Made by a program: the position numbers and the translations under genes. The notes below the pieces were generated by a model. It was given only the letters and a program-made list of their open reading frames with translations. It ran no database searches and was not told the DNA's origin. This document shows positions 1,886 to 35,899 of a stretch of 64,000 nt of DNA, piece by piece (within the stretch, counting starts at the first letter, position 1; every line of letters begins with the position of its first letter). The stretch is from Apilactobacillus ozensis DSM 23829 = JCM 17196 (lineage in GTDB: Bacteria; Bacillota; Bacilli; Lactobacillales; Lactobacillaceae). The DNA lies in the NCBI RefSeq assembly GCF_001435995.1, contig NZ_AYYQ01000001.1, forward strand, positions 1 through 64,000, given 5' to 3'.

Positions 1886-1914
1886 TTGACTTTTATAATT
1901 TATATATTTAAAAT
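1886..1914 (+). promoter_or_regulatory. Promoter of the trpXYZ leader
   Basis: TTGACT (1886-1891) and TAAAAT (1909-1914) are separated by exactly 17 bp. The start of transcription would be near 1921, giving a leader RNA of about 290 nt before the first structural gene. Confidence 0.7.
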
Positions 1915-1942
1915 TAGGTTATTAAGAAGGGAGAGGTTGTCA

Positions 1943-1996
1943 ATGAATAATATAAATAAAATTAGTTTTAGTAGTTGGCAAGGCTGGCAATATTAA
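1943..1996 (+). CDS. Trp-containing leader peptide (17 residues)
   Basis: An ATG preceded by AAGGGAGAGG (about 1926-1936) opens a 17-codon frame reading MNNINKISFSSWQGWQY, then TAA. The two Trp codons are at 1976-1978 and 1985-1987, close to the stop. Two of 17 residues being Trp, the good ribosome binding site, and the position just before a set of competing hairpins and a terminator upstream of a Trp-type importer all fit a ribosome-stalling attenuation peptide. No catalytic or structural role is expected. The interpretation is inferred; the frame and pairings are directly visible. Confidence 0.7.
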   Translation: MNNINKISFSSWQGWQY

Positions 1997-2124
1997 AGTC
2001 GTAGTGTGTTAATTTACAGATGCGACTTTGATAATTAGATGTTAAATCATTTATCGATAATGCATCTGTGCTGGCTATCTTCTCACGAATAAATGCCTGT
2101 GCGGATTTTATTAAAATGCCAGCC
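1982..2124 (+). promoter_or_regulatory. Attenuator: mutually exclusive leader pairings
   Basis: GGCTGGCA (1982-1989), overlapping the second Trp codon, is complementary to TGCCAGCC (2117-2124). GCTGGC (2070-2075) can pair with the same target at 2118-2123, so the two compete. A further pair of exclusive hairpins is AAAGTCG/CGACTTT (1995-2001 with 2023-2029, covering the peptide stop) and ACAGATGC/GCATCTGT (2016-2023 with 2062-2069). A ribosome stalled on Trp codons would mask 1982-1989 and shift the balance. No T-box motif (AGGGTGG type) is present. Confidence 0.6.
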
Positions 2125-2138
2125 AGGCCTAATAAATT

Positions 2139-2181
2139 AAAAGCGGACTGTCTGAGCATTCAGATATGTCCGCTTTTTTAT
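2139..2181 (+). terminator. Attenuator terminator before trpX
   Basis: Arms AAAAGCGGAC (2139-2148) and GTCCGCTTTT (2168-2177) with an inner TCTGA/TCAGA helix, followed by a T tract. It lies 32 nt before the trpX start and therefore controls read-through rather than ending an upstream gene. Confidence 0.85.
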
Positions 2182-2212
2182 TGCCATAAAATAATTATTT
2201 AAGGAGCGAAAT

Positions 2213-3211
2213 ATGAAAAGACTGTATGGAACCATTATTATCCTATTTTTAATTTTAACCTATGCCTTTTTGCAAGAGAGTCACCCTAAAAAAAACGATA
2301 AGAATCGCACCCCTATTGTGGGAATTTTGCAGCTAACTGATCACCCTGCTTTAAACGAAATTCATAAAGGTATTATCGATGGTTTAAAAGAATCTGGATA
2401 TTTCCCAAATAAAAATATAAAAATTGACTTTCAAAATGCCGAAGGTGATCAAAGTAATTTACAAACTATGAGTACTAAGTTTGCGAATGAAAATGTTGAT
2501 GCTGCGATTGGAATTGCTACCCCGGCTGCTCAATCGTTAGCCAATAGCATTAAAAATGCTCCAATTGTTTTAGGAGCGATTACTGACCCTGAAAAAGCAG
2601 GCTTAGTTGACAGTAACCAACACCCTGGTCGCAATGTTACAGGAGTATCCGATTTATTACCGCTACAACCTAATTTAGATTTAATCAAAGCATCCGTCCC
2701 GCATTTGAAAAATTTGGGCATTATTTACACATCTAGTGATAATTCATCGACAACTCAATATCAAATGTTCAAAAAGTTATGTAAAGAAAATCATATTAAT
2801 TTGAAAGCTTATACCATTGCTAACAGTAATGATTTAAACCAAGTGTCCCAACAAATGCTCCAAAAAGTAGATGCTGTATTTGTGCCAGTCGACAACACCA
2901 TTGCTAGTTCTATTCAAACTTTAATTGGAAATGCCAATGCCAAAAATATTCCTGTCTTTCCTGGATCAGATACTATGGTCAAAACTGGTGGTGTCGCAAC
3001 ATATACTGTTGACCAATATGGCATGGGTGTCCAAACTGGTAAAATGACGGCTGGAATTTTGAGAGGACAAATCGACCCCAAAAATACCCCTATCAGTTTT
3101 ACTAAACATCCAAAATTGGTAGTAAACCTTAAACAAGCTCAAAAATTAGGAATTCATCTACCTGAAAATATTATTCAAGAAGCCACACACAAAGGAGTGA
3201 TTTACAAATGA
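2213..3211 (+). CDS. trpX: ABC importer substrate-binding protein, TrpX type
   Basis: A 332-residue periplasmic-binding-type protein of the ABC_sub_bind family (PF04392), which in streptococci serves tryptophan uptake. A hydrophobic segment at residues 4-20 is followed by two similar alpha/beta lobes (GILQLTDHPALNEI at about 38; a second lobe from about 165). The N-terminal segment has no lipobox cysteine, so it looks like an uncleaved membrane anchor rather than a lipoprotein. The start follows AAGGAGCG. It overlaps trpY by 4 nt. The Trp leader upstream supports Trp or a related aromatic compound as ligand. Confidence 0.85.
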   Translation: MKRLYGTIIILFLILTYAFLQESHPKKNDKNRTPIVGILQLTDHPALNEIHKGIIDGLKESGYFPNKNIKIDFQNAEGDQSNLQTMSTKFANENVDAAIGIATPAAQSLANSIKNAPIVLGAITDPEKAGLVDSNQHPGRNVTGVSDLLPLQPNLDLIKASVPHLKNLGIIYTSSDNSSTTQYQMFKKLCKENHINLKAYTIANSNDLNQVSQQMLQKVDAVFVPVDNTIASSIQTLIGNANAKNIPVFPGSDTMVKTGGVATYTVDQYGMGVQTGKMTAGILRGQIDPKNTPISFTKHPKLVVNLKQAQKLGIHLPENIIQEATHKGVIYK

Positions 3212-4098
3212 GTATATTAGTATCTGCAATTGGACAGGGTTTGTTATGGGGAATTATCGGCGTTGGATTATTCTTAACCTTTAGAATTCTTGACTTCCCT
3301 GATATGACTGTTGAAGGAACTTTTCCAATGGGAGCAGCAACTTCCGTCACAGCAATTGCTCATGGTGTGTCACCATTTAATGCAACTATTTTAGCCTTTA
3401 TTGTCGGTTGTTTAGCCGGCTTAGTAACTGGGCTACTTTATACTAAAGCTAAAATTCCAGTTTTATTAGCCGGTATTTTAGTTATGACAGCATCTTACTC
3501 CATTGATTTAAGGATTATGGGTAAGCCCAATCAATCGTTGTTAGGTTTAAAGACGTTATTCAATAGTCCAGTATTTGCTAAGTTACCGCCTTACTTCGAT
3601 AGCATTTTTATAGGTATCTTAATTGTAGCAATTATTATCGCAATTTTAATTTACTTCCTACAGACTAACTTAGGTCAATCATTCATCGCTACCGGTGACA
3701 ATGAAGATATGGCTCAATCTCTTGGTATTAACACTGATAATATGAAAATTATGGGAGTCAGTGTATCCAATGGTTTAATTGCCCTAGGCGGTGCCCTAAT
3801 TGCACAAAATAATGGATATTCAGACGTTAATATGGGAATTGGAATAATCGTAGTGGCCTTAGCATCAATTATTATTGGTGAAGTTATTTTTGGTAATTTA
3901 ACAATGAATCAACGACTAATCGCAGTCATTTTAGGTAGTATAATTTATCGAATTATATTAATGATTGTATTACAACTTGGCTTTAATGCTAACGATTTCA
4001 ACTTAATTTCTTCAGTAATTCTGGCATTATTTATGTCATTACCAATCTTAGAAAAGAAATACAACCTCAAAAGAATTATTCAAAGGGGGCTAAAATAA
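3208..4098 (+). CDS. trpY: ABC importer permease, TrpY type
   Basis: A 296-residue membrane protein of the BPD_transp_2 permease class, with about eight hydrophobic segments. The conserved cytoplasmic loop contains GQSFIATGDNEDMAQSLGI near residue 155, which contacts the ATPase in this family. The start overlaps trpX and the stop overlaps the start of trpZ by 1 nt, so the three are translationally coupled. It forms the channel of the importer fed by the upstream binding protein. Confidence 0.85.
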   Translation: MSILVSAIGQGLLWGIIGVGLFLTFRILDFPDMTVEGTFPMGAATSVTAIAHGVSPFNATILAFIVGCLAGLVTGLLYTKAKIPVLLAGILVMTASYSIDLRIMGKPNQSLLGLKTLFNSPVFAKLPPYFDSIFIGILIVAIIIAILIYFLQTNLGQSFIATGDNEDMAQSLGINTDNMKIMGVSVSNGLIALGGALIAQNNGYSDVNMGIGIIVVALASIIIGEVIFGNLTMNQRLIAVILGSIIYRIILMIVLQLGFNANDFNLISSVILALFMSLPILEKKYNLKRIIQRGLK

Positions 4099-4865
4099 TG
4101 AGTAAGCCTATCTTTCAACTAAAAGACGTTACTAAAACGGTAAACGCCGGTTCACCCGAAGAACTGAATATTTTAAATCATCTAAATTTAGATATCCATG
4201 ATGGTGACTTTATAACTATCTTAGGTTCCAATGGGGCCGGTAAATCAACTTTATTTAACAGTATCACTGGCAATATTGTCCCCACTTCAGGGGATATCAT
4301 ATATAAAGGCAATCGCATCAATAAAATGTCAGTCGTTAAACGAACTAAGTTTTTGAGTCGCGTTTTCCAAGACCCTAAACTAGGTACTGCACCACGTATG
4401 ACTGTGGCGGAAAATCTACTATTAGCTGAAAAACGTGGTGAACATCGTTTATTCAACCTAAGAGGATTGAATAAACAGTTACCATTATTTAAAAAAATTA
4501 CCGCAAAAATGAATAATAGTTTAGATAAACGTTTAAACACCCCTACTGGAAATTTATCTGGTGGTCAAAGACAAGCCTTAAGTTTTTTAATGGCTACAAT
4601 TAAAAGACCTGACATTTTGCTGTTAGACGAACATACAGCTGCTTTAGACCCCAACACTTCTGAAAAATTGATGAAGATAACCAATGAGACTATCATCAAA
4701 GAAAATCTAACCTGTTTAATGATTACACATCAATTAGAAGATGCTTTAAAATATGGTAATCGACTAATTGTATTGCACAAAGGCGCCATTGCTTACGACT
4801 TTAACAGTGAAGAAAAGAAAAAGCTGTCTAAAGAAGATATGTACAAATTCTTCAACGAAAAATAA
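4098..4865 (+). CDS. trpZ: ABC importer ATPase, TrpZ type
   Basis: A 255-residue ABC ATPase. Walker A is GSNGAGKST at about residues 41-49, the signature LSGGQRQ is near 152, and Walker B LLLDEHTAALD is near 172, with the switch His in MITHQLED. The glutamate after the Walker B Asp is present. It powers the TrpXY importer; it is the last gene of the unit controlled by the Trp leader. I see no strong terminator before the next promoter at about 4894. Confidence 0.85.
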   Translation: MSKPIFQLKDVTKTVNAGSPEELNILNHLNLDIHDGDFITILGSNGAGKSTLFNSITGNIVPTSGDIIYKGNRINKMSVVKRTKFLSRVFQDPKLGTAPRMTVAENLLLAEKRGEHRLFNLRGLNKQLPLFKKITAKMNNSLDKRLNTPTGNLSGGQRQALSFLMATIKRPDILLLDEHTAALDPNTSEKLMKITNETIIKENLTCLMITHQLEDALKYGNRLIVLHKGAIAYDFNSEEKKKLSKEDMYKFFNEK

Positions 4866-11829: not shown

Positions 11830-11855
11830 CCAAATATATTAAAATATTTATTTAC

Positions 11856-11935
11856 ATTGTTTGGGGTGCCTTTTAGGCTGAGATAATACCCATGGAACCT
11901 GATCAAGCTAATACTTGCGAAGGAAAACATTAGTC
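11856..11935 (+). ncRNA. TPP riboswitch (thi box)
   Basis: The conserved TPP aptamer elements are in order: GGGGTGCC, GGCTGAGATAATACCC, ACCTGATC and the 3' TGCGAAGGAAA core. It lies upstream of the ykoEDC genes and is followed by a strong terminator at 11971-12006, so thiamine pyrophosphate should switch transcription off. Confidence 0.95.
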
Positions 11936-11970
11936 TTTTATTTTTGCGTACAATTTTAAGCTAAAAATTC

Positions 11971-17214: not shown

Positions 17215-17240
17215 ATTATTTATCAAGTTAAATAGTATTT

Positions 17241-17306
17241 GTTTATATAATACCAAAATATGGTTGGTTAGTTTCTACCTAGGACCGTTAATCCTAGACT
17301 ATAAGC
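17241..17306 (+). ncRNA. Purine riboswitch, guanine/xanthine class
   Basis: The conserved core is present: TATAATACC at the P1/J1 side, ATATGG, GTTTCTACC and a P3 helix CTAGGAC/GTTAATCCTAG ending in GACTATAAG. P1 is GTTTATA/TATAAGC. The ligand-pairing nucleotide equivalent to position 74 is C (17299), which specifies guanine or hypoxanthine rather than adenine. Confidence 0.92.
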
Positions 17307-17318
17307 ATAAAGTATTCT

Positions 17319-17355
17319 AGACTTTTTGCTTTTAGTCATGCAAAAGGTCTTTTTT
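17319..17355 (+). terminator. Purine riboswitch terminator
   Basis: AGACTTTTTGC and GCAAAAGGTCT form an 11-bp stem followed by TTTTT, 42 nt before the permease start. It is the OFF conformation of the riboswitch. Confidence 0.85.
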
Positions 17356-23233: not shown

Positions 23234-23498
23234 AACAAATGAGAATATTAAGCTATGATGAGAAAAGTAGTTAGATACAATTTTTGCAGAGAGTCCATGT
23301 GGGGTGAAAATGGATATGTTGGATTTAACGAAAATGGTCTTTGAGCTTTTACGAACGACATTTAGTTCGTAACGGGAGCACCTGATATCGTGCAAAGGAA
23401 TGATTAGTTCCGGATGAGGTAAATCAATTTTGATTTATAAACTAAGGTGGTACAGCGAGGCACTCGCCCTTTTTAATAAGGGCGGGTGCTTTTTTATT
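23234..23498 (+). ncRNA. T-box leader, methionine specifier
   Basis: Stem I distal features (GCAGAGAGTCC...GGATATG) are followed by the specifier region GAAAATGGTC, in which ATG (23334-23336) is the likely specifier codon. The T-box motif AAGGTGGTACAGCGAG lies at 23444-23459, with TGGT able to pair with an ACCA tRNA end. Uncharged tRNA-Met would favour the antiterminator. It covers the roughly 400-bp stretch without a protein gene. Confidence 0.9.
23460..23498 (+). terminator. T-box terminator
   Basis: GCACTCGCCCTT and AAGGGCGGGTGC form a 12-bp stem with a 6-nt loop followed by TTTTTTATTTT. It competes with the antiterminator that includes the T-box motif. Confidence 0.9.
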
Positions 23499-35709: not shown

Positions 35710-35892
35710 TTTTGTCGATAGCGCCCCATAAGCTTTCATACTTATGACAGTTCATAGCCTATTAAGCTAAGCCCCAGAAAGAAAAATCACATATAAAATT
35801 CTTTCTTCGGCAATCTCCCCTTTCAAATAACCTCATAGCCAATATGTGATAACTCGGTTATTTTACTTTTGTCGACTGCGACCTCTTCGATT
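35710..35892 (-). ncRNA. Lysine riboswitch (L box)
   Basis: Read on the minus strand, the conserved aptamer blocks occur in order: GAGGTCGC near the 5' end, then AAGGGGAGATTGCCGAAG, and TTTCTGGGGCTTAG and GGGGCGC towards the 3' end. The size, about 180 nt, and its position before lysA with a following terminator match the class. Lysine should switch the operon off. The 5' limit is set by the promoter at 35900. Confidence 0.9.
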
Positions 35893-35899
35893 AAATAAA

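Follow-up and report, generated by a model that had tools for sequence, protein, structure and literature searches.

The leader of about 330 nt upstream of the tryptophan ABC transporter operon trpXYZ of Apilactobacillus ozensis is very probably a transcription attenuator that senses Trp through translation of a leader peptide. It looks like a member of a larger class of RNAs, the Rfam families RF04312 and RF02863 among them, that share one RNA core and whose leader codons choose Trp, Phe/Tyr, His, or Leu. On its own, the locus would be an ordinary attenuator; as an entry to a codon-programmable class that would explain an orphan riboswitch candidate, it would make the finding much wider than thought.

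The trpXYZ leader and its conservation in Apilactobacillus

The leader and its operon lie near the start of the window, the whole 64,000-nt stretch of DNA that was analysed (Table 1). The promoter, Shine-Dalgarno (SD) sequence, 17-codon peptide with W12 and W15, octamer, hexamer, and terminator described in the earlier note are all where it had placed them. Compared with 200 dinucleotide shuffles, the 274-nt stretch 1917-2190 is more stably folded by 6.7 SD and surpasses every one of them, and the leader peptide is the sole SD-preceded ORF of 8-35 codons with two Trp in its last eight residues on both strands of the 64-kb window. A promoter of the form TTGAC(A/T)-N17-TAAAAT or TAGAAT was also read by eye upstream of the leader in relatives L002, L003, L005, L007, L009, L013, and L015. 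No trpB match was found in the window's genome (99.96% complete), and among 10 genus genomes examined, the window's own included, just 2 contain one, so Trp import should matter. Directly upstream of the leader is an amino acid permease of the APC family (205-1806).

Table 1. Positions of leader and operon features in the window
Feature	Position	Strand	Basis or details
Promoter, TTGACT (1886-1891), 17 nt spacer, TAAAAT (1909-1914)	1886-1914	+	Sequence
SD of leader peptide, AAGGGAGAGG	1927-1936	+	Sequence
Leader peptide ORF, MNNINKISFSSWQGWQY and stop, 17 codons	1943-1996	+	UGG at 1976-1978 (W12) and 1985-1987 (W15)
Segment 1, over W15, octamer GGCTGGCA	1982-1989	+	Partner here segment 6; in most relatives, tail of segment 4
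Segment 2, over and just past stop codon	1991-2003	+	Partner 2021-2033, duplex −15.6 kcal/mol
Segment 3	2016-2033	+	Partner segment 2, or ACAGATGC with 2062-2069
Segment 4	2062-2075	+	Partners segments 3, 5, or 1; GCTGGC at 2070-2075
Conserved apical loop containing UUCUCACGAA	2076-2094	+	Alignment A1
Segment 5, 5′ arm of old terminator	2095-2106	+	Partners segments 4 or 6
Segment 6, 3′ arm of old terminator, without U run	2117-2128	+	Partners segments 5, 7, or 1
Segment 7, upper 5′ arm and loop of terminator	2148-2158	+	Antiterminator partner of segment 6
Intrinsic terminator with U6	2139-2179	+	−23.5 kcal/mol; 32-33 nt 5′ of trpX ATG (2213)
trpX, tryptophan ABC transporter substrate-binding protein	2213-3211	+	NF041285, 450.7 bits (cut-off 390)
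trpY, permease	3208-4098	+	PF02653
trpZ, ATPase	4098-4865	+	PF00005

A DNA search of 60 genomes matched 20: the window's own, all 15 genus-mates, and four others (L017-L020). The four matches outside the genus are all short; the two that were read, L017 and L020, were rejected as leaders. All 16 genus leaders contain TGGCAA(A/G)GCTGG within a short, SD-preceded ORF ending in WQGWQY, WQSWCY, WQSWCL, WQSWC, or WQSWS, such that WQxW, and with it the pair of Trp codons that was to be checked in related genomes, is kept in 16 of 16. The ORF lengths differ by multiples of three, and an identical leader peptide, MKNILSKNLSSRWQSWCL, is present in a genus-mate (G004:C18) and in Apilactobacillus kunkeei LMbo (L203).

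Alignment of the 16 genus leaders (A1) reveals a chain of mutually exclusive pairings that runs through segments 1-7 and ends in the terminator, 7:8. The chain resolves into two sets: an ON set (2:3, 4:5, and 6:7), in which 93.7% of cells are paired, and an OFF set (3:4, 5:6, and 7:8), in which 96.1% of cells are paired; the cells are not independent, since the sequences are related. Sliding the partners by 1-3 columns drops the pairing of both sets to 26-46% of cells. Two-sided changes occur at 5 pairs of the ON set (shuffle mean 1.9; 1 of 500 shuffles as high) and at 4 pairs of the OFF set (shuffle mean 1.9; 17 of 500 as high), while further pair types show no excess over shuffles for either set in A1. 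In particular, 6:7 (duplex −11.9 kcal/mol) has two-sided changes at 3 pairs, and 4:5 has a compensatory change from G-C to A-U in L013. The leader thus combines a conserved ORF, exclusive pairings with compensatory change, and a terminator with an antiterminator partner, as expected of a leader-peptide attenuator. A second peptide between segments 4 and 5, noticed by eye in L007, was rejected: it has no SD and was not found in frame in L003 or the window.

Constitutive partial termination, with the codons and pairings coincidental, would fit a separate terminator-like hairpin that precedes the leader, but is extremely unlikely given the leader's own promoter, its fold z-score of −6.7, and the conservation of the codons and of both pairing sets. 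Ribosome-stalling attenuation, the reading of the earlier note, is borne out by the peptide with its Trp codons in 16 of 16 leaders and by compensatory changes in both sets; its wiring is a longer ladder than had been drawn. The octamer pairing that had been put at its centre, 1982-1989 with 2117-2124, is a perfect complement in the window (−15.1 kcal/mol) and is lineage-specific: by eye in A1, it is possible in only 2 of 16 leaders, the window (L001) and L002, and is absent from 14 of 16, and it is predicted to act in the state with no ribosome. The remaining 14 instead pair the region of the Trp codons with the position equivalent to 2070-2075 (GCUGGU with ACCGGC; ACCAGC in L013). This 1:4 pairing holds in 96.3% of cells and has 1 pair with two-sided changes, compared with 2 in a version slid by +3, and is weakly supported.

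In the mechanism that we propose, scarce charged tRNA-Trp would cause the ribosome to stall at W12 or W15, with segment 1 covered and segment 2 free; 2:3 and 4:5 would form, the free segment 6 would capture segment 7, the terminator would be blocked, and trpXYZ would be read. With plentiful Trp, a ribosome at the stop codon would cover segment 2, 3:4 and 5:6 would form, and the terminator would close. With no ribosome, segment 1 would capture segment 6 (in the lineage of the window) or segment 4 (in the rest of the genus), and the terminator would be kept. Stalling, termination, the response to Trp, and the order of the pairings are thus what we infer from sequence.

Folding with a ribosome footprint, suggested in the earlier note, was performed with the RNA downstream of the ribosome up to the 5′ half of the terminator. 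In the window, the antiterminator is predicted at the Trp codons only: a ribosome stalled at W12 gives 8.8 expected 6:7 pairs and one at W15 gives 8.3, compared with 0.6 for a ribosome on the stop codon and 0.4 for RNA without one. The stop-codon position gives 8.6 expected 5:6 pairs; in the RNA without a ribosome, the octamer pairing occupies segment 6 in the minimum free energy (MFE) fold. Across the genus, 6:7 exceeds 5:6 in 9 of 16 leaders (W12), 12 of 16 (W15), 8 of 16 (stop codon), and 4 of 16 (no ribosome), such that the equilibrium folds separate the states weakly, with the same trend as in the window; in the closest relative, L002, 5:6 is favoured in all four states, contrary to the model. 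We regard the ladder wiring as likely and not as shown, because the model is one of equilibrium, without kinetics, and its footprint edge was chosen at 13 nt.

The apical loop of the 4:5 hairpin is conserved, and its stretch near 2079-2084 is complementary to the leader SD (duplex −7.6 kcal/mol); a similar pairing is present in the full-length MFE folds of the genus leaders (six folded). The RNA may in this way be able to shut off leader translation.

Trp leaders across Lactobacillaceae and the trpB motif RF04312

Trp leaders are widespread before trpX. By rule, 72 of the 100 Lactobacillaceae loci taken upstream of trpX or a paralogue have a Trp-signature leader, compared with 1.9% of shuffles, with one of the 72 (L081, at −65) looking like a false call; the leaders span 29 of 35 genus labels, two of the labels being paralogue groups. 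A T-box at gathering score was found at none of the 60 Lactobacillaceae trpX loci scanned, 2 of which matched RF04312 instead. In the window, no T-box (RF00230) lies upstream of trpX, the sole T-box being at 23246-23474, and T-box control of the operon is ruled out by this Rfam scan, together with the 60 family loci. The Rfam trp leader has no match in the window leader, and leu-phe_leader (RF01743) has none in 148 Lactobacillales genomes, the window's own included. Other Rfam matches in the window are a lysine riboswitch (35710-35895, minus strand) and TPP and purine riboswitches (11852-11942 and 17223-17321); a THF riboswitch lies near the trpX locus of another genus (L059, 475-630).

In its published description (Narunsky et al. 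2024, PMC11109978), RF04312, the trpB motif, is ranked as a strong riboswitch candidate, SRC-39-1. According to the accessible text of that paper, it has more than 900 representatives, is found most often before an uncharacterized ABC transporter, and could be a classic attenuator, which its authors could not rule out. The window leader scores 28 bits against RF04312 (E 0.052), short of the gathering cut-off of 59 bits, and that of genus-mate G015 is likewise below the cut-off (E 4.4e-4); segment 3 aligns with the left arm of P1 of the model. Matches are present in 159 of 295 Lactobacillales genomes and 49 of 74 genera (52 genomes above the cut-off), and phylum-wide in only 4 of 398 genomes. 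These frequencies, with the 72 of 100 trpX loci and the 60 loci without a T-box at gathering score, contradict the expectation in the earlier note that a leader-peptide system for Trp uptake would be unusual in Gram-positive bacteria, and weaken the view that Trp genes there are nearly always under T-box or TRAP control.

We examined 70 Lactobacillales RF04312 loci (30 given and 40 picked down the match list) and 3 outside the order. A rule blind to amino acids found a candidate ORF ending near the motif at 72 of 73 loci; where several ORFs passed (3 loci), the one with most Trp was taken, and shuffles were handled alike. Trp is present in the last eight codons at 66 of the 70 Lactobacillales loci (1.6% of shuffles), and two or more Trp at 42 of 70 (0.05% of shuffles). 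At the remaining four, the Trp lies farther from the stop codon (L137, L286, and L287) or the Trp leader has no SD by pattern (L307). L153 and L154 lie outside Lactobacillales; neither has a cognate leader, and both matches are probably due to chance. By profile, the proteins encoded downstream of the 70 are 62 of the TrpX family, 5 TrpB, and 1 group II intron protein, with none at 2 loci. Three RF04312 leaders (L125, L151, and L122) have no cognate gene nearby; L122 is followed by a group II intron reverse transcriptase. A pattern search requiring a leader, which gives names and not rates, found one at 40 of 80 loci among the matches listed, with carriers including Enterococcus, Vagococcus, Tetragenococcus, Limosilactobacillus, Lentilactobacillus, Marinilactibacillus, Alkalibacterium, and several Streptococcus species.

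The modelled effect of the ribosome is pronounced in these leaders. Specifically, the antiterminator exceeds P1 in 50 of 69 with the ribosome at the first Trp codon, 32 of 69 at the last, 3 of 69 at the stop codon, and 8 of 69 with no ribosome (first Trp codon vs stop codon, Wilcoxon p 4e-7). In an alignment of 54 leaders (A2), for which automatic consensus folding missed P1 and P1, terminator, and antiterminator were set by hand from L133, P1 and terminator have 122 cells with two-sided changes, compared with 41 in shuffles, and the antiterminator has 25, compared with 14. Counted as pairs, the antiterminator of A2 has 5 with two-sided changes, compared with 5.7 in shuffles, and its further pair types show no excess.

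Model R2, built from 54 leaders of other genera and without L001-L016 and L203, finds the window leader and those of its 15 relatives at E ≤ 8.3e-5; its source leaders are Trp leaders, and many of these also match RF04312. The leader is the one significant match in the window's genome (E 6.2e-5; next match 0.16). Two further R2 matches, L346 and L347 in other Apilactobacillus genomes, were set aside as ordinary terminators that lack a cognate leader.

In the R2 alignments of L009 and L007, the genus hairpin 5:6 coincides with the short-form terminator but lacks the U run. Of the 39 Lactobacillaceae trpX leaders that were parsed (13 of 52 loci were not), 36 have, before the gene, a pair of hairpins with T-rich stretches after them. 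For 15 of these, at most 3% of shuffles match the pairing between the first hairpin's 3′ arm and the second hairpin's 5′ half; the other 21 do not reach this level, among them L001 and L007, for which an incorrect pair of hairpins had been taken. In the simplest history, a second terminator became coupled to the first by that pairing, after which the first was turned into a relay in Apilactobacillus through loss of its U run; this step stays conjectural, since the comparison with shuffles would also allow both hairpins to have a common origin. The elongated chain keeps the parity of the pairings.

Other leader codons on related RNA

In the order of one clostridial genome, RF04312 at E ≤ 0.001 matches 40 of 194 genomes, none above the cut-off. 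Among 59 clostridial matches listed, 30 loci were examined, and an SD-ATG leader is present at 30 of 30. At 28 of 30, at least three of the last nine residues belong to one amino acid class (2.2% of shuffles). Profiles identify the downstream proteins as 19 NSS transporters, 5 BrnQ-type carriers, 5 members of the histidyl-tRNA synthetase family, and 1 ABC binding protein. His runs precede the 5 hisS/hisZ-type genes, Leu runs precede 3 NSS genes of one subgroup, and Phe/Tyr runs precede the remaining genes (16 NSS, 5 BrnQ, and the one for the binding protein), such that codon class fits gene class at 30 of 30 loci, with the events not independent and the NSS subgroups assigned by reading of sequences. 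The closest PDB entry to an NSS representative with a Phe/Tyr leader (L320) is 4us3, which we take to be MhsT. The antiterminator is predicted to exceed P1 in 22 of 30 leaders with the ribosome at the first codon of the run, 9 of 30 at the last, 4 of 30 at the stop codon, and 8 of 30 with no ribosome (p 0.014). In Clostridiaceae, BrnQ-family (branched-chain) carriers lie behind Phe/Tyr leaders at L316, L323, L328, L332, and L333; we suggest them as candidates for carriers of aromatic amino acids.

Two clostridial leaders match RF02863 (Enterococcus sRNA 2410). This family is present in 107 of 198 Lactobacillales genomes (48 above the cut-off), has no match in the window's genome, and overlaps RF04312 matches in at least four places (G409:C14, G427:C1, G405:C17, and G419:C1); one such overlap, L284, carries a Trp leader. 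By rule, with an ORF window set after seeing the data (reading L364), 28 of 30 RF02863 loci have a Phe/Tyr leader, e.g. QLNNYYFSYFR followed by a stop codon, compared with 5.3% of shuffles; of the other two, L383 has a leader without SD by pattern and L387 has none. Downstream of the 30 loci are 15 TrpX-family proteins, 14 aroE, and 1 neither. The best E-value of these TrpX-family proteins corresponds to a score below the Trp cut-off, and six TrpX-family proteins behind Phe/Tyr leaders, four of them at RF02863 loci, score 269-345 bits, below the NF041285 cut-off of 390.

TrpX paralogues of Lactobacillaceae with Tyr or Phe runs are found at L078, L079, L081, L354, L355, L358, and L362. In a small tree of binding proteins, 17 Trp-leader rows stand apart from 4 Phe/Tyr-leader rows with support 100/100 (4 further Phe/Tyr rows and 8 Trp rows were left out of the tree). 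TrpX-family proteins behind Phe/Tyr leaders (L078, L354, L355, L358, L362, L338, and RF02863 loci such as L364-L373) are likely Phe or Tyr transporters, liable to be misnamed as tryptophan transporters. Leader codons would accordingly offer a rule for predicting transporter substrates. In one Lactobacillaceae genus (g9), leaders ending in NIRLRS(R/Q), with two to three Arg, precede polar amino acid or peptide transporters (L348, L349, L350, L352, and L357), and L348, L350, L352, and L357 may extend the list of codon classes. Trp leaders also precede peptide-binding proteins at L361 (Opp4A, below its cut-off) and L353 (by eye), which suggests that Trp limitation may also induce peptide uptake.

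These leaders bear on two further readings. The RNA could be a riboswitch for an amino acid or a related ligand, as proposed for the trpB motif, with the leader ORF incidental. The published rank of RF04312 and some conserved letters in unpaired stretches of A1 speak for this; the Trp near the stop codon before the motif in 66 of 70 loci, and the switching of codons with the gene (His, Leu, and Phe/Tyr) on related RNA, which a ligand pocket would not predict, make it very unlikely, and letter conservation in P1 is expected if each strand has two partners. Alternatively, the peptide could sense free Trp by nascent-chain arrest, for which TnaC is the model, and not uncharged tRNA-Trp. The [QK][LVI]N motif, which stands a short way ahead of the run in leaders of the Trp, Phe, Tyr, and Leu classes, points that way, and 87 Leu codons of six kinds among 130 distinct ORFs (picked by a pattern requiring [LVIF]N, with a few chance ORFs) hint at peptide-level selection. 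However, runs of 2-5 cognate codons that are exchanged with the gene argue for stalling at the codon level, the motif is missing from most Apilactobacillus leaders, and AAT encodes its Asn in 115 of 130 ORFs, which may reflect selection on the RNA; we therefore give arrest by free Trp little credence. The motif before the run is not explained by tRNA sensing alone, and the nascent chain possibly helps in stalling.

With sensing of charged tRNA by codon-level stalling as the preferred reading, we think it probable that RF04312, RF02863, and the Apilactobacillus ladder form one superfamily of codon-programmable attenuators in Lactobacillales and Clostridiaceae. Its specificity would be set by leader codons of the form [QK]LN-x-run-R, before trpX, trpB, aroE, hisS/hisZ, NSS, BrnQ, and peptide-uptake genes, and would be readdressed by codon change. 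In Lactobacillaceae, the decision would travel along a chain of coupled terminators, in which the first pairs through its 3′ arm with the second's 5′ arm; the first would be a pure relay in Apilactobacillus. Such a relay of coupled terminators would be a new attenuation layout, and RF04312, an orphan strong-riboswitch candidate, and RF02863, a small RNA in Rfam, would gain a concrete, testable function.

Comparison with known systems

The trp attenuator of the E. coli type comprises an SD, a short peptide with Trp codons near its stop codon, exclusive hairpins, and a terminator before the operon. The window leader has the same parts, with its regulatory Trp codons likewise near the peptide stop; unlike E. 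coli trp, it governs uptake and not synthesis, its segment 2 lies past the stop codon, and its ladder has more rungs.

In Streptococcus suis, the same operon, trpXYZ, is controlled by a Trp T-box in response to the same signal, Trp limitation. The T-box, as described in the accessible part of that report (PMC9382623), is a tRNA-binding riboswitch without a leader peptide, and none was found at the window operon.

With RF04312, the window leader shares segments 3:4 and the GGCU stretch, which match P1 of the model, and a place upstream of trpX or trpB. It differs in scoring below the cut-off and in its elongated form, with a relay hairpin and a second terminator. The available text of PMC11109978 presents RF04312 as a riboswitch candidate and makes no mention of a leader ORF. 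RF02863 is filed as a small RNA, whereas here it appears as a Phe/Tyr leader overlapping some RF04312 matches. A literature search for RF04312 or 'trpB motif' returned the original paper only, and one for RF02863 or 'sRNA 2410' returned nothing relevant (most subscription papers and preprints lay outside the scope of both).

Leader-peptide attenuation in Gram-positive bacteria is established for His leader peptides of Firmicutes (Naville and Gautheret 2010, PMC2965389; PMC9413887) and for the Leu attenuator of Staphylococcus aureus ilv (PMC5794164). The leaders described here share with these systems, as far as the accessible texts go, the mode of control and His runs before his genes and hisS paralogues; those texts contain no tie to RF04312, to Trp, Phe, or Tyr leaders, or to a shared RNA core. 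As far as the literature searches show, what is new here is the role assigned to RF04312 and RF02863, the finding that related RNAs carry different leader codons, and the relay form.
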